A DNA stretch of 64,000 bases from Taibaiella koreensis. GTDB taxonomy: Bacteria; Bacteroidota; Bacteroidia; Chitinophagales; Chitinophagaceae. Shown in pieces: positions 26,146-34,394 of the stretch. Within the stretch, counting starts at the first letter, position 1. Each line of letters starts with the position of its first letter. A program made the translations under genes and the position numbers. The notes beneath the pieces were generated by a model. It was not told where the DNA came from. It searched no databases and saw nothing but the letters and a program-made list of their open reading frames with translations. The stretch lies in NCBI RefSeq assembly GCF_003545715.1, contig NZ_QVNU01000004.1:496001-560000 (forward strand). Direction: 5' to 3'.

Positions 26146-27309
26146 TCAGGCTTCCGGCAAGGCCTGCAGAATATCGGCAAGGATATCGTCCCTGTGCTCA
26201 AGACCCACCGAGATACGGATGAGCCCAGGGGTTATGTTTACAGCCAGGCGTTCCGCCTCGCTCAACTTGGCATGTGTGGTGCTGGCCGGATGCGAGGCTA
26301 TGCTGCGTGTATCGCCGAGATTGGCGGTCAGCGACAGCATCTGCAGCCGGTCAAGGAACTGCCGCCCGGCTTCAAGGCCTCCTTTCAGCTCAAAGCAAAC
26401 AATTCCGCCGCCATTCTTCATCTGCCTTTGTGCGATCGCATATTGCGGATGACTGGGTAGAAAAGGATATTTGAGTCCGCTTAAGGCGGGATGCCCTTCG
26501 AGCTGTTGTGCCAGGAACAAAGCATTGGCGGCGTGGCGCTCCATGCGTACATCCAGGGTCTCAAGGCTTTTGCTCAGGATCCAGGCATTGAAGGGGGACA
26601 AAGAAGGTCCCATGCTACGACAAAACAGGTAGATCTCCTGGATAAGCGCCTTTTTGCCTGCTACAACACCTGCCAATACCCTCCCCTGTCCATCCAGCCA
26701 TTTGGTACCCGAATGGATCACCAGGTCGGCCCCATAGGTAATGGGCTGCTGCGCTACCGGTGTGGCAAAGCAATTGTCGACCACCAATAACAGCCGGTGC
26801 TTTTGCGCCAGCCGGCCCAGCCGTTCCAGATCAAGAATATCCAGACCCGGATTGGTCGGCGTTTCCACATAGATCATTTTTGTTTCGGGCCGTATGGTCT
26901 GCTCCCAGGTATCGGGCTGGTCGGCAGCGAAGTAGGAATAGCTGATCCCATATTTAGGCAGGTATTTGCTCAATACGGTATGAGTGCTGCCAAAGATAGC
27001 ATTGCAGCTGAGCAGATGATCGCCCTGCTTGAGCAAAGCCAGGAATGTGGATGAGACCGCACTCATGCCGGAAGCCGTGGCGTAAGCGGCTTCCGCACCT
27101 TCCAGGGCAGCGATCTTGTCTGTAAATTCAGTAACGTTGGGATTAACGAAACGGCTGTAAATATTGGCCTCCCGCTCATCGGCGAAGGTAGCCCGCATGT
27201 CTTCGGCAGAGTCGAAGCAGAAGCTGCTGGTAAGATAAAGAGGTACGGAATGCTCCATTTGTGCGCTGCGCGCCGCCTGGATCCGTATAGCTTTCGAGAT
27301 CGGGTGCAT
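26146..27309 (-). CDS. metZ: O-acyl-homoserine sulfhydrylase / cystathionine gamma-synthase family
   Basis: The 387-residue PLP enzyme belongs to the Cys/Met metabolism family. The PLP-binding Lys203 is in HSGTKWLDGQGR. Other family marks are SRFVNPNVTEFTDKIAALEGAEAAYATASGMSA (split here only by reading), YVETPTNP and the C-terminal SLTANLGDTRSIASHPAST. It would replace the acyl group of activated homoserine with sulfide (giving homocysteine) or cysteine (giving cystathionine). Because a homoserine O-acetyltransferase gene lies next door, an O-acetylhomoserine substrate is likely, although the sequence style is closest to the MetZ type. It follows osmC by 31 bp, on the same strand. Confidence 0.88.
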   Translation of the reverse strand: MHPISKAIRIQAARSAQMEHSVPLYLTSSFCFDSAEDMRATFADEREANIYSRFVNPNVTEFTDKIAALEGAEAAYATASGMSAVSSTFLALLKQGDHLLSCNAIFGSTHTVLSKYLPKYGISYSYFAADQPDTWEQTIRPETKMIYVETPTNPGLDILDLERLGRLAQKHRLLLVVDNCFATPVAQQPITYGADLVIHSGTKWLDGQGRVLAGVVAGKKALIQEIYLFCRSMGPSLSPFNAWILSKSLETLDVRMERHAANALFLAQQLEGHPALSGLKYPFLPSHPQYAIAQRQMKNGGGIVCFELKGGLEAGRQFLDRLQMLSLTANLGDTRSIASHPASTTHAKLSEAERLAVNITPGLIRISVGLEHRDDILADILQALPEA

Positions 27310-27865: not shown

Positions 27866-28900
27866 ATGCAACAAAGCTATCATTACGACCACCCCTTTCT
27901 CCTGGAGTGCGGCGCCGAGCTGCCGGAGCTGCATATTGGCTATACGACTTACGGCCAGCTGAACGAAGCCGGAGACAATGTGATCTGGATCTGCCATGCA
28001 CTTACGGCCAGCGACGATGCTGCCGGCTGGTGGGAAGGCATGATAGGCGAAGGTTGTGCTTTTGATCCCCGCTACCATTACATCGTTTGCGCCAATATTC
28101 TGGGTAGTTGCTACGGTAGCACAGGCCCGCTCAGCATTGATAAAACAACGGGAAAGCCTTATTACAGCAACTTCCCGCTGCTTAGTATCCGCGATATGGT
28201 ACAGGCCCACGTACTGCTGCGGCAACACCTCGGCATCGGCAACATCAGCCTGCTGGCCGGCGGCAGCATGGGCGGCTATCAGGCACTGGAGTGGGCGCTG
28301 CTGGAACCGGAGCGCATAGACAGGCTGTTTGTCCTGGCTACCTCGGCAGCTGAAAGCGCCTGGGGTATAGCCGTGCATACAACTCAACGGATCGCGATTG
28401 AAGCCGACCCCAGCTTTGGCGAAGATGATCCCGGCGCCGGCGCCAAAGGTCTGAAAGCAGCCAGGGCCATAGGCATGCTTACTTACCGCAACTACGAGCT
28501 GATGGTACAGCAGCAAACCGATCCCGACACCGAAAAAACAGACCATTTCAAAGCCAGTGCGTATATGCATTATCAGGGCGATAAGCTGGTCAGGCGTTTC
28601 AATGCCTACAGCTACTATTTGCTCAGCAAAGCGATGGATAGCCACAACCTGTCGCGTGGCCGTGGCGGTTCTATACCCCCGGTACTTGCCACGATAAAGC
28701 AGCCCGTGCTGTTGATCGGCATTTCCAGCGATATCCTTTGCCCTCCCGAAGAACAGCGGCAGCTGGCTGCACATCTGCCTCATTGCCGTTACGAAGAGAT
28801 CACCTCTCCTTATGGCCATGACGGTTTCCTGGTCGAATCAGCGCAGATCAGCTTGTTGCTGCAGCAATGGTGGTCAACAAGAAAGGATGGGTTATTATAG
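27866..28900 (+). CDS. metX: Homoserine O-acetyltransferase
   Basis: The 344-residue alpha/beta-hydrolase-fold enzyme acetylates homoserine with acetyl-CoA, the activating step of methionine synthesis. The nucleophile is Ser134 in AGGSMGGYQALEW. Family marks are ICHALTASDDAAGWW, the CANILGSCYGSTGP loop, a catalytic Asp in GISSDILCPP and the catalytic His in SPYGHDGFLVE. It is divergent from osmC and metZ, which supply the next step, so the three genes form a methionine cluster. The stop overlaps the end of the convergent small membrane protein gene by 6 bp. Some homologues use succinyl-CoA; acetyl is the default for this subfamily. Confidence 0.95.
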   Translation: MQQSYHYDHPFLLECGAELPELHIGYTTYGQLNEAGDNVIWICHALTASDDAAGWWEGMIGEGCAFDPRYHYIVCANILGSCYGSTGPLSIDKTTGKPYYSNFPLLSIRDMVQAHVLLRQHLGIGNISLLAGGSMGGYQALEWALLEPERIDRLFVLATSAAESAWGIAVHTTQRIAIEADPSFGEDDPGAGAKGLKAARAIGMLTYRNYELMVQQQTDPDTEKTDHFKASAYMHYQGDKLVRRFNAYSYYLLSKAMDSHNLSRGRGGSIPPVLATIKQPVLLIGISSDILCPPEEQRQLAAHLPHCRYEEITSPYGHDGFLVESAQISLLLQQWWSTRKDGLL

Positions 28901-31553: not shown

Positions 31554-31583
31554 TTGGTGATCCGTTATCCTGGCGTAGATTTG
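31554..31583 (+). promoter_or_regulatory. Promoter of the cysteine-leader/EamA/permease operon
   Basis: TTG (31554-31556) and TAGATTTG (31576-31583) are 19 bp apart, a full Bacteroidota -33/-7 match. The expected start of transcription (around 31589-31592) coincides with the ATG of leader 1, so the transcript may be leaderless. Confidence 0.7.
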
Positions 31584-31591
31584 CAACCTGA

Positions 31592-31675
31592 ATGAATAGT
31601 CAATACCGCCATATCAATAGTAATGCATGCTGCAACAATTGTTGTATGTGTATGGCTATGCTATGGAAAGGCTGA
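31592..31675 (+). CDS. Cys/Met-rich leader peptide 1 (27 residues)
   Basis: The frame starts at the ATG at 31592 and ends at TGA 31673-31675. The second half carries a dense run of sulfur amino acids, ACCNNCCMCMAM: Cys at 13, 14, 17, 18 and 20 and Met at 19, 21 and 23. The last three codons contain GGAAAGGC (31665-31672), which is exactly complementary to the 5' arm of the terminator (GCCTTTCC, 31707-31714). This is the layout of a transcription attenuator: a ribosome stalled at the Cys codons leaves GGAAAGGC free to pair with and break the terminator, while one that reaches the stop covers it. The peptide itself probably has no function. Mechanism is inferred; the sequence features are direct. 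Confidence 0.65.
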   Translation: MNSQYRHINSNACCNNCCMCMAMLWKG

Positions 31676-31706
31676 TAGACGCTTCATTATTGTTGTCTCC
31701 CAGGCT

Positions 31707-31733
31707 GCCTTTCCTTACCGGAAGGCTTTTTTT
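31707..31733 (+). terminator. Attenuator terminator 1
   Basis: GCCTTTCC (31707-31714) pairs with GGAAGGC (ending 31726) with one bulged T, and is followed by TTTTTTT. Its 5' arm can instead pair perfectly over 8 bp with GGAAAGGC at 31665-31672. It lies 31 nt after the leader 1 stop. Confidence 0.8.
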
Positions 31734-31754
31734 ATGTACTTTATTTCTCAGAAT

Positions 31755-31829
31755 ATGCTGTTGCACACACATTGTTGTCCCTGTTGTATGTACCTGTTCC
31801 GGCGACGGAGCCAGCGATGTTGTGCCTGA
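31755..31829 (+). CDS. Cys-rich leader peptide 2 (24 residues)
   Basis: The frame begins at the ATG at 31755 (an in-frame ATG at 31734 would add 7 residues) and ends at TGA 31827-31829. It contains HCCPCCM near the start and QRCCA at the end: six Cys in 24 residues, all TGT. It follows terminator 1 and precedes terminator 2 by 24 nt, repeating the leader-then-terminator layout. The two leaders share the CC-x(1-2)-CC-M pattern but differ otherwise, so this is either an old duplication or convergent. I could not identify by eye an antiterminator partner for the second hairpin. Confidence 0.6.
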   Translation: MLLHTHCCPCCMYLFRRRSQRCCA

Positions 31830-31853
31830 TCCATAAAATCACACAGCATACAC

Positions 31854-31887
31854 AAGGCCTTCTGTCGTACCGGCAGAAGGCCTTTTT
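31854..31887 (+). terminator. Attenuator terminator 2
   Basis: A perfect 11-bp stem, AAGGCCTTCTG (31854-31864) with CAGAAGGCCTT (31874-31884), has a 9-nt loop and is followed by a short T run (overall CCTTTTTC). It ends about 40 bp before the ATG of the EamA transporter gene, so it must be bypassed for the operon to be expressed. Confidence 0.88.
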
Positions 31888-31926
31888 CATTTTCATCTCT
31901 TTGTCCAACGACTTAATACAAAACAA

Positions 31927-32928
31927 ATGTTACCCGCTACAAAGACAAAGCTACTGACCTTACTGGCCTTTGCCAGTGTCTACCTGATCTGGGGATCCAC
32001 TTTCCTGGCCATCAGCTATGGCCTCAGGGGTATCCCCCCTTTTTTACTTTCCGGCCTGCGCTTCCTCATAGCCGGCGTGCTGCTATTGCTTTGGCGTTTT
32101 TCCCGCGGAGAAAGCGCACAGTCGCGTACCAACTGGCTCAGGAACGGCATTACCGGCATCCTTATTCTTACCGGCGGCACTGGCCTGGTCGCCTGGGGCG
32201 AACAATACATCAGCGCCACAGAGGCCGCAATTGCCATAGCCACAGGTCCTTTCTGGTTCATCGCCCTGGATCGTAAAAACTGGCGCAGCTACTTCAGCAA
32301 TCTTCCTACCATAGCCGGGCTGCTCGTCGGATTTGCCGGATTGCTCCTGTTCTTCAGCGATAGTATAGGCGGCACTGGCCGGCCGGCGGGCAATACAGTG
32401 CGCATTCTGGCCTTTGCCGTGTTGGCGCTCAGCTCCATCTCCTGGGTATTGGGGTCGCTATATGCCAAGCATCGCCGGGCCGACCATTCTACTTTTATGA
32501 ATATCGCACAGCAATTGCTGGTCGCCGGGGTCGCCGCGATGGTGATCAGCGCTTTCCGTGGGGAATGGCAGGATTGGGTTCCGGCAAATGTCCCGCTGCA
32601 ATCCTGGTTTGGCCTCGTCTTCCTGGTATTGTTCGGATCGATCGTCGCCTACTTATCCTATATCTGGCTGCTGTCCGTCAAATCGCCGGTGCTGGTTAGT
32701 ACCCATACTTACATCAATCCTATCGTTGCTGTATTGGCCGGCTGGCTCTTCATTGATGAACATATGAGTGTATTCCAGCTGGCTGGTCTCGCCGTGATCC
32801 TGGCCGGCGTATTGCTCACCAACGCTTCCGGATACAAGCTTAGCAAAAGATTACGTGTCCGCATCAGGCGTTCCTTTAAAATATGGACGGGCGCACCACG
32901 TTCAGACAAATACCTCGTAGAGTTTTAA
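31927..32928 (+). CDS. EamA-family (DMT) transporter
   Basis: The 333-residue membrane protein has about ten helices in two EamA repeats, with the family marks YLIWGSTFLAI at the start, GEQYISATEAAIAIATGPFW in the middle, and THTYINPIVAVLAGWLFIDE in the second repeat. DMT transporters move amino acids and other metabolites; the E. coli EamA protein exports O-acetylserine and cysteine. The upstream cysteine-rich leaders make a sulfur amino acid a likely substrate here, but direction is unclear. Starvation-induced attenuation fits uptake better than export. The permease gene follows 5 bp after its stop, so the two are co-transcribed. Confidence 0.9.
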   Translation: MLPATKTKLLTLLAFASVYLIWGSTFLAISYGLRGIPPFLLSGLRFLIAGVLLLLWRFSRGESAQSRTNWLRNGITGILILTGGTGLVAWGEQYISATEAAIAIATGPFWFIALDRKNWRSYFSNLPTIAGLLVGFAGLLLFFSDSIGGTGRPAGNTVRILAFAVLALSSISWVLGSLYAKHRRADHSTFMNIAQQLLVAGVAAMVISAFRGEWQDWVPANVPLQSWFGLVFLVLFGSIVAYLSYIWLLSVKSPVLVSTHTYINPIVAVLAGWLFIDEHMSVFQLAGLAVILAGVLLTNASGYKLSKRLRVRIRRSFKIWTGAPRSDKYLVEF

Positions 32929-32933
32929 TAGCT

Positions 32934-34394
32934 ATGTTGAAAAAATCGATCGAAAAGCTGCAACAGGAGGCTTCCCTGCAAAACAGCGATACCCTGAAAA
33001 GAAGCCTGGGTCCGGTAAACCTTATTGCTATTGGTATCGGCGTGATCATTGGCGCCGGCCTGTTCTCGCTCACCGGCATTGCTGCGGCCAATAATGCGGG
33101 GCCTGCCGTTACGCTATCGTTTATTATCGCTGCCATAGGCTGTGCTTTCAGCGCCCTGTGCTATGCAGAATTTGCGGCAATGGTTCCCGTATCGGGCAGC
33201 GCTTATACCTATGCCTATGCAACGCTGGGTGAAGTATTTGCCTGGATCATCGGCTGGGACCTGGTGCTGGAATACGCTGTGGGTGCCGCAACCGTGGCGA
33301 TCAGTTGGTCGCAGTACCTCGCCCGGTTCCTGGAAAAGATACACTTGCAGCTTCCCTACGAACTGATCCATTCTCCCTTCGAGACTGCAATAGCGAGCGA
33401 TGGTACGGTACTACGTGGCTGGCTCAATTTTCCGGCGGCCCTCATCGTATTGCTCATTACTGCGCTGATCATACGCGGCGTCAGAAAATCGGCCCTGTTC
33501 AATATCATCGTTGTCGCGCTGAAAGTGGGCGTAGTGCTACTCTTCGTTGCCCTGGGCTGGCGCTATATCAACCCGGCGCACTATCATCCTTATATTCCGG
33601 CCAATACCGGTAGCTTCGGCGCTTTTGGCTGGAGCGGGGTACTGCGTGGCGCAGGCGTTGTCTTCTTTGTCTTTATCGGTTTCGATATTGTCGCCACCAT
33701 GGCCCAGGAAACGAAAAACCCTCAAAGAAATATGCCTATTGGGATCATTGGCTCCCTGCTCATCTGTACCTTGCTGTTTGTGCTGTTCGGCTATGTAATG
33801 ACGGGGCTGGCTTCCTACAAGGCTTTTAAAGACAGCGCCGCGCCGGTAGCTGTAGCAATACAACAAACACCCTATGAGTGGCTGAGTTTTGTCATTATTC
33901 TGGCCATACTGATCGGGTACACCTCCGTTATCCTTGTCGATCTGCTGGGGCAATCCCGGGTGTTCTATTCCATGAGCCGTGATGGACTGCTACCCAGGCT
34001 CTTTTCCCGGCTGCATCCAAGGTTCAGCACGCCTTCGCAGGCCAATACGGTGTTGGGATTGTTCATTGCATTATTTGCCGCCTTTGTTCCCATACAAGTC
34101 GTTGGCGAGATGACCAGTATCGGCACCCTGCTGGCTTTTGTCATGGTTTGCCTTGGTGTGCTTATTCTCCGCAGGAAACAACCGGAGATACCGAGGCCTT
34201 TCAGAACCCCATGGGTGCCGGTAGTGCCGGTACTGGGCATTATCACGTGCCTAGTCATGATGTACGCGCTACCCTGGGAAACCTGGTTGCGCCTCTTGCT
34301 GTGGCTGGCCGCCGGCATGCTCATCTATTGGCTGTATGGCAGGAAGCATAGCAAGCTGCGCCGGGAAAGCATAAGTGAGCAGCCGGAGACATAG
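32934..34394 (+). CDS. APC-superfamily amino-acid permease
   Basis: I chose the ATG at 32934, 5 bp after the transporter stop, giving 486 residues (MLKKSIEKLQQEASLQNSD...); a longer frame starting at 32883 would overlap the upstream gene. About 12-14 membrane helices are visible. The first carries the APC motif IGIGVIIGAGLFSLTGIAA, which binds the substrate backbone, and a later segment reads FFVFIGFDIVATMAQETKNPQRNMP, typical of the cationic-amino-acid-transporter (CAT) type. It likely imports an amino acid with protons or by exchange. The shared leader region suggests regulation by cysteine. Confidence 0.9.
   Translation: MLKKSIEKLQQEASLQNSDTLKRSLGPVNLIAIGIGVIIGAGLFSLTGIAAANNAGPAVTLSFIIAAIGCAFSALCYAEFAAMVPVSGSAYTYAYATLGEVFAWIIGWDLVLEYAVGAATVAISWSQYLARFLEKIHLQLPYELIHSPFETAIASDGTVLRGWLNFPAALIVLLITALIIRGVRKSALFNIIVVALKVGVVLLFVALGWRYINPAHYHPYIPANTGSFGAFGWSGVLRGAGVVFFVFIGFDIVATMAQETKNPQRNMPIGIIGSLLICTLLFVLFGYVMTGLASYKAFKDSAAPVAVAIQQTPYEWLSFVIILAILIGYTSVILVDLLGQSRVFYSMSRDGLLPRLFSRLHPRFSTPSQANTVLGLFIALFAAFVPIQVVGEMTSIGTLLAFVMVCLGVLILRRKQPEIPRPFRTPWVPVVPVLGIITCLVMMYALPWETWLRLLLWLAAGMLIYWLYGRKHSKLRRESISEQPET

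Follow-up and report, generated by a model that had tools for sequence, protein, structure and literature searches.

Two putative Met/Cys leader-peptide attenuators in series before a transport operon of Taibaiella koreensis, and related units in Bacteroidota

We found that an operon encoding an EamA-family transporter and an APC-family permease in Taibaiella koreensis is preceded by two units, each made of a short Cys- and Met-containing ORF and an intrinsic terminator. As judged from sequence, the two units are likely trp-type (ribosome-controlled) transcription attenuators that act in series on a sulfur-amino-acid transport operon and sense a shortage of Met-tRNA and Cys-tRNA. The window analysed here, a 64,000-nucleotide stretch, is part of a 5.94-Mb genome. 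Comparison with related loci indicates that the Met/Cys leader-peptide attenuator is real, conserved, probably functional, and doubled in this genome. The reading is carried by the anatomy of the leader, the retained Met and Cys codons, the spacing from stop codon to terminator, a lineage-specific pairing between leader end and terminator, and the linkage to metN and metI in relatives, all of which are directly visible in the genomes compared.

The elements are arranged 5' to 3' as promoter, leader ORF 1, terminator 1, leader ORF 2, terminator 2, EamA gene and APC permease gene (Table 1). An earlier note on this DNA had described a promoter, two leader ORFs and two terminators before a transporter gene, and every one of these is present. 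The Bacteroidota promoter consensus is TTTG/TAnnTTTG, and transcription is predicted to start a few nucleotides 5' of leader 1. Eight nucleotides separate the last base of the promoter from the leader 1 ATG, so the leader 1 mRNA would be nearly leaderless; this gap is longer in Chryseobacterium (L073), and a near-leaderless start is therefore not a defining trait. Leader ORF 1 has counterparts in T. helva (L062) and T. chishuiensis (L063), and T. helva also has a start at the place matching the first ATG of leader ORF 2. Terminator 1 is modest (-8.2 kcal/mol) and terminator 2 very stable (-23.1 kcal/mol).

Table 1. Features of the leader, the operon and two nearby genes, in positions of the window
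Feature	Position	Strand	Details
O-succinyl/O-acetylhomoserine sulfhydrylase-like gene	26146-27309		best model 502.6 bits, under cut-off 522
metX	27866-28900		NF001209 336.2 bits (cut-off 331); TIGR01392 367, under 500
Bacteroidota-type promoter (predicted)	31554-31583	+	TTGG 31554-31557, 18 nt, TAGATTTG 31576-31583
Leader ORF 1, 27 codons	31592-31675	+	MNSQYRHINSNACCNNCCMCMAMLWKG; control codons (Cys/Met) 31628-31660
Antiterminator arm 1	31665-31672	+	GGAAAGGC; overlaps last leader 1 codons; pairs with 31707-31714
Intrinsic terminator 1 (predicted)	31707-31733	+	7-bp stem 31707-31726, U7 to 31733
Leader ORF 2, long form, 31 codons	31734-31829	+	MYFISQNMLLHTHCCPCCMYLFRRRSQRCCA; in-frame ATG 31734 directly 3' of the U-tract; control codons 31773-31790
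Leader ORF 2, short form, 24 codons	31755-31829	+	MLLHTHCCPCCMYLFRRRSQRCCA; alternative start ATG 31755, stop 31827-31829
Antiterminator arm 2	31802-31812	+	GCGACGGAGCC; pairs with 5' arm and loop of terminator 2
Intrinsic terminator 2 (predicted)	31854-31889	+	stem 31854-31884 and U-tract
EamA/DMT-family transporter gene	31927-32928	+	first gene of the operon; Pfam PF00892, 114 bits; orthologues found
APC-family amino acid permease gene	32937-34394	+	PF13520, 197 bits; NCBIfam BcaP model 569 bits, under cut-off 690

The two leaders contain 5 and 6 Cys codons, in agreement with the 11 in 51 codons counted earlier. The simple binomial probability of this number is 3e-12 (at 1% Cys) or 7e-7 (at 2/61), uncorrected for the search through which the leaders were first noticed; dinucleotide shuffles carried through the same ORF choice are fairer, and give p = 0.010 and 0.005 for Cys in units 1 and 2, 0.0025 and 0.005 for Met plus Cys, and 0.087 and 0.055 for Met alone. 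Cys, not Met alone, is the significant residue in the window's own two units. The RNA from 31588 to 31930 folds better than 100 of 100 shuffles (z -4.6), and unit 1 alone (31588-31740) has a fold z of -2.0, with 6 of 200 shuffles as good. The comparative evidence gives stronger support than these fold and codon statistics of the window itself.

For the comparison we used 84 EamA loci: the best 80 of 361 relatives (the named loci), the window, and L006, L008 and L009. Nearly all the EamA orthologue loci are named as Bacteroidota. At least one unit of short ORF plus intrinsic terminator lies within 560 nt in 80 of the 84 loci and at least two units in 16 of them (both counts including the best 80 of 361), so the serial layout proposed for the window is not peculiar to this genome. 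These counts are mechanical, in that a unit did not have to pass the Met/Cys test. The distance from the leader stop to the terminator stem has a median of 25 nt over 97 units and falls between 19 and 31 nt in 93 of them, in a search that allowed about 0-75 nt. No ORF-terminator unit was found within the same range at L138, L140, L006 and L009. The last two are EamA orthologues of one genus; L006 retains a Cys-rich ORF (METNPENPQQNACKQACQNISMRCSCCTVQAVRQ), and in L009 a stop within the leader counterpart, seen by eye, suggests that the leader may be decaying there. More distant EamA homologues (L010-L031, 38-45% identity) lie outside the 84 and were scanned for Cys-rich ORFs only. T. chishuiensis (L063) has a third Cys-rich ORF about 202-60 nt 5' of its EamA gene, MSSRSCSCCCMPSPPG; the hairpin after this ORF is strong but has a poor U-tract, and we regard the pair as no more than a possible third unit. 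L068, in a record titled Glaciecola amylolytica, has an EamA gene (59% identity), metNIQ and one leader unit. Glaciecola is by its name a gammaproteobacterium, and L068 is either a mislabelled record or a case of gene transfer.

The codons were tested in 42 units from 26 loci, picked to spread over the lineages; the ORF listed for a unit is the one with the highest Met plus Cys, and the same choice was applied to the dinucleotide shuffles. At p<=0.05, 37 of the 42 units are richer than the shuffles in Met plus Cys, 33 in Met by itself and 23 in Cys by itself; for Met plus Cys the Fisher value (4e-50) is overstated because the 42 units are not independent. The five units that fell short are L062 unit 1 (0.067), both L141 units, and the L070 units at -506 and -238, the first of which is probably the terminator of an upstream gene. 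A core CC-M-x-M recurs in the leaders, often with MM or MMM before it. Chryseobacterium leaders contain about two Cys per 32 codons, yet have an almost invariant MM..CMP core: in 39 equal-length leaders aligned out of 55 distinct ones, M18 (39/39), M19 (38/39), C23, M24 (39/39) and P25 are all but invariant, and one Cys is fully conserved.

The earlier note took the operon to be switched by cysteine. If so, the units would be cysteine-only attenuators and the Met codons passengers, at least in this genus. The window fits this well, having 11 Cys against 5 internal Met codons (with the long leader 2) in addition to the p values given above; of the two residues taken singly, Cys but not Met reaches 0.05 in the window and T. 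helva, Met failing in all four units, and in T. helva and T. chishuiensis, which resemble the window, Met alone reaches 0.05 in one of four. Against a passenger role, Met is more conserved than Cys in Chryseobacterium and is significant by itself in more units of the whole set. Because Chryseobacterium combines about two Cys with an invariant Met-rich core, cysteine starvation alone is too narrow a signal, and we rejected Cys as sole signal over the whole set; we consider the cysteine-only reading improbable, with the window's genus as the place where it is still live. Over the whole set the codons point to methionine plus cysteine as the signal. The transport side of the earlier proposal, an amino-acid transport operon, fits what we found. 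Comparison also bears out its leader ORFs, terminators and antiterminator complementarity, as well as the serial layout in 16 of 84 loci; among relatives these features are retained or co-vary.

Could Met and Cys instead be by-products of RNA pairing (AUG, UGU), in ORFs that are untranslated or unneeded, with hairpins acting either as common upstream terminators or as a switch bound by a protein? In Chryseobacterium the conserved Cys and Pro residues are each encoded almost always by the same codon (TGT 38/39, CCT 38/39), third position included, which argues for some constraint at the nucleotide level. The enrichment is nevertheless frame-specific, with Met at 142 in frame against 19.7 in the other frames and Cys at 126 against 65.9 (in ORFs chosen for Met plus Cys), and the leader Cys codons vary over the set (TGT 88, TGC 38). 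The narrow spacing from stop to terminator, and a frame kept over long divergence, also speak for translation, and we find the by-product reading the hardest of all to credit.

Translated leaders of the attenuator type should carry an antiterminator near the ORF end. The earlier note had pointed out that the end of leader 1, GGAAAGGC, is complementary to the 5' arm of terminator 1, GCCTTTCC (31707-31714); the match is perfect, and 0 of 200 shuffles equal its duplex of -14.6 kcal/mol. The unit 2 duplex (-16.8) is equalled by 2.5% of 200 shuffles. For all 42 units we took the final 30 nt of the ORF, counting the stop codon, together with at most 14 nt past it, and paired this stretch with the terminator 5' arm and loop; an earlier run had taken 33 of them, L067 being among those omitted. 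The mean duplex was -11.84 kcal/mol for a unit's own pairs and -8.01 (sd 0.39) when partners were permuted among units, and 0 of 20,000 permutations were as low. Own pairing beats the median swap in 41 of 42 units and the swap mean in all 15 lineage groups; against shuffles of the same terminator arm, it beats the median in 42 of 42 and reaches p<=0.05 in 24. The weakest pairing is seen in L069 unit 1, both L067 units and L064 unit 2. The pairing letters differ by lineage, being GGAAAGGC/GCCTTTCC in the window, TGTATCGGG/CCCGATACA in L136 and GTATGAAA(T)GGT/GCCTTTCATGC in Flavobacterium sp. L071. When pairing was allowed anywhere 8-95 nt 5' of the stem, 35 of 39 units had their best duplex 15-45 nt from it (mean rank 0.23/0.22), a site that in the model is the leader end, which a ribosome finishing the leader would cover.

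Within Chryseobacterium the two structures behave differently. The terminator stem (35 of 55 distinct leaders) is 98.2% paired, with 21 cells changed on both sides (0/500 shuffles); these changes involve only 2 pairs, a number reached by 143 of 500 shuffles. The antiterminator there is invariant, 89.8% paired against 37-57% when slid, and compensatory change is absent: in none of its pairs have both sides changed, and 500/500 shuffles pair equally well. The terminator thus co-varies within Chryseobacterium and the antiterminator does not, so that the evidence for antiterminator covariation is that between lineages.

These elements suggest the following scheme. RNA polymerase would start just 5' of leader ORF 1, with a translating ribosome trailing it. 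With ample Cys-tRNA and Met-tRNA the ribosome would run to the leader stop and cover the antiterminator arm, so that terminator 1 forms and transcription ends. With these in short supply it would wait at the Cys/Met cluster (CCxxCCM...), and the downstream arm, left free, would pair with the 5' half of the terminator before the 3' half is made, letting the polymerase pass. The same decision, presumably on the same signal, would be repeated at leader ORF 2 and terminator 2, and the operon would be read only when both had been passed, that is, be induced by Met/Cys shortage.

Folding with assumed ribosome edges, a check suggested in the earlier note, agrees with this scheme in part. In unit 2, when a ribosome is halted at either of the first two Cys pairs and the terminator 3' arm is not yet made, the free RNA takes a -25.3 kcal/mol fold that contains the antiterminator; a ribosome at the final Cys pair or the stop exposes no antiterminator fold, and ribosome-free RNA forms a leader hairpin instead. 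In unit 1, as long as the 3' arm is absent, the antiterminator has a probability of 0.97-0.98 both without a ribosome and with a stalled one, and its arm is covered when the ribosome is at the stop. Because ribosome-free unit 1 RNA makes the antiterminator first (0.97), it would read through there. The last Cys pair of leader 2 (31818-31823), kept in T. helva, lies too far 3' to free the antiterminator. Once the full terminator is available, it wins at equilibrium in every modelled ribosome state of both units (0.77-0.82 in unit 1), so the scheme needs kinetic trapping. This equilibrium result is its main physical weakness in the models, and would be acceptable only if polymerase leaves the U-tract before strand exchange.

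The genes behind the leaders also point to sulfur amino acids. In 66 of the 80 named loci (best 80 of 361), EamA is followed on its own strand by genes for methionine import, metN and metI. All but one of these 66 also have metQ (65 loci), and the one without it, L112, is cut off by the end of its contig. The gene next to EamA is metN in 64 of the 66 loci; one gene intervenes in L111, and in L134 the gap is about 1.8 kb with a tRNA gene between. A DUF4395 gene occupies this interval in both (L111:5042-5503, PF14340 92 bits; L134:6337-6759, 51% identity to the L111 gene). The met genes were identified from L073 (NCBIfam MetI 372.9, cut-off 212; MetQ 414.4, cut-off 374; MetN 441, below 499.7). 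In the window the permease occupies the place held by metN in most relatives, as an APC permease does in 8 of the 80 loci; an SDF symporter does so in 1, and 5 showed no match to any of the six genes tested for, L136 among these being cut by a contig end (all of the best 80 of 361). A SAM-II riboswitch lies 3' of the EamA-permease operon in L064 (L064:6102-6161; a MAG named Flavobacteriaceae). PF03180 (the MetQ family) had no match in four same-genus genomes, so the permease may have taken over the task of MetQ. A MetN search of 345 genomes of the class matched 4, but with about 6 candidates per genome scored it says nothing on the distribution of metN. In the window, the sulfhydrylase-like gene and metX lie some 3-5 kb 5' of the leaders, so that the neighbourhood itself concerns methionine synthesis. 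We infer that the operon's cargo is methionine, perhaps cysteine or cystine. EamA proteins are often exporters, which would fit starvation induction poorly unless this clade imports.

Leader composition (Met z 12.0, Cys z 6.5, His z 2.7) admits a metal-based reading, in which a nascent Met/Cys/His-rich peptide binds a soft metal ion such as copper and stalls the ribosome, and the operon answers metal stress, since the enriched residues, His mildly so, are soft-metal ligands. The Met and Cys z values are inflated because the ORFs were chosen for Met plus Cys, the shuffle test with the same choice being the fair one, and Asn, Lys and Arg are enriched too. The partners of EamA are methionine import genes or amino-acid permeases, with no metal transporter among the partner proteins scanned, the terminator/antiterminator logic suits codon stalling, and we know of no metal site of the form CCMxM; we think metal sensing very unlikely. 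A riboswitch or T-box, SAM riboswitches included, was rejected for want of Rfam matches: no family reached gathering score at the leader in the window or at the leaders of 16 related loci. With permissive settings, the only match at the window leader lay on the other strand and was at chance level (E 0.56).

If the units are attenuators, their number seems to follow the type of operon. At least two stages are present in all 9 permease-type operons, window included, against 2 of 66 metN-type operons (relatives from the best 80 of 361), a comparison confounded by relatedness in that most single-stage operons are from Chryseobacterium. As a tentative reading, somewhat less probable than its opposite, each unit would answer Met or Cys shortage (OR) and the effects of two or three stacked units would be multiplied (AND). 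The outcome would be a near-digital switch for sulfur starvation, in which the number of stages evolves along with the type of operon. In a test of tandem duplication over 10 genomes, units 1 and 2 of the same genome were weakly alike (z 0.8-6.1), and unit 1 was often far more like unit 1 of another species of its clade (up to z 16.5). Since unit 1 often resembles that of other species more than its own unit 2, the series order seems older than those species.

Set beside known systems, the arrangement is, on present sequence evidence, a variant of trp-type attenuation, not a new category. With the textbook trp, his and leu attenuators of E. coli (features in part from the discussion excerpt of PMC3641672) it shares a short ORF with clustered control codons (37 of 42 units), an antiterminator overlapping or near the ORF end and an intrinsic terminator before the operon (80 of 84 loci); it differs in its Met plus Cys codons, transport genes, two serial units and Bacteroidota host. 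The poly-cysteine leader ORFs of mycobacteria and other Actinobacteria, reportedly the subject of Canestrari 2020, are alike in placing a short Cys-rich ORF before sulfur-amino-acid genes. For those leaders PMC1262725 reports that conserved hairpins able to act as terminators were not found, and PMC13236596 speaks of translation attenuation. The units described here have predicted intrinsic terminators, antiterminators, Met codons and a serial order, and so do not belong with Cys-run ORFs that lack an intrinsic terminator. The tandem attenuators of Salmonella mgtCBR likewise place two short ORFs in a single leader, and both of these act on transcription. According to the excerpted text of PMC3641672, they answer two different signals (ATP and proline), independently and additively, through stem-loops unlike intrinsic terminators; its authors regard tandem attenuation by different signals as a singular case. 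In the units described here an intrinsic terminator follows each ORF, and the control codons are of one class, both window ORFs carrying Cys and Met. Met exceeds Cys in unit 1 and Cys exceeds Met in unit 2 of L064, L066 and L069, a pattern that fails in L067 and L070.

Within the phylum, the part of PMC9723704 seen here reports 'strong clues' of leader-peptide attenuation in Flavobacterium psychrophilum, the same mechanism class, upstream of amino-acid biosynthesis operons; it mentions no Met/Cys leaders or serial units. Excerpts of two other papers describe one B. thetaiotaomicron 5' UTR with several putative short ORFs (PMC7366714) and discuss leader peptides outside Proteobacteria (PMC2965389). 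Our search of the open-licence PMC literature found no description of Bacteroidota Met/Cys leader attenuators with intrinsic terminators, single or serial. As far as that search reaches, the earlier note's statement that it knew of no such layout in Bacteroidota stands for serial Met/Cys units, while clues to leader-peptide attenuation as such do exist.

In the window's own genome (L185, G000:C21) a His-rich short ORF, MSFTQLHHHHFHTGTQPGGNDLV, and a terminator-like hairpin seen by eye precede hisG, so leader-peptide attenuation is probably in use there. The pattern TGYTGY-N3-9-TGYTGYATG gave 25 matches in four same-genus genomes (frames up to 110 residues), with a terminator detected at only 4, the two window leaders and the two T. 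helva leaders; it does not fit the EamA leaders of T. chishuiensis itself, and one match, L161, was not re-found in the terminator scan. A Met-Cys pattern matched 4 times in 395 genomes of the phylum. Three of these matches (L181, L182, L184) had no leader layout by eye and the fourth, L183, is interrupted by N; the pattern, which misfits most Chryseobacterium leaders, is too narrow to exclude reuse of the leader. In L073 and other Chryseobacterium, a palindrome, TCTACT-N4-TAGTNGACTA, lies in the -33 region of the EamA promoter. Near-copies (L143, L148, L149) precede ORFs that resemble, by eye, a peroxiredoxin, a NIL-domain protein and a TonB receptor; a reversed control pattern matched oftener (22 against 10), and the palindrome is possibly a repressor site or chance.

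If our reading is correct, Bacteroidota would have a conserved leader-peptide switch that is coded in Met and Cys and uses intrinsic terminators, and in some members one complete attenuator would be followed by a second of its own type. Species with one unit and species with two would then be natural comparisons for what is gained by serial attenuation. The reading also predicts that the Taibaiella EamA protein and APC permease, whose cargo the family models used do not tell, would move methionine, cysteine or cystine.
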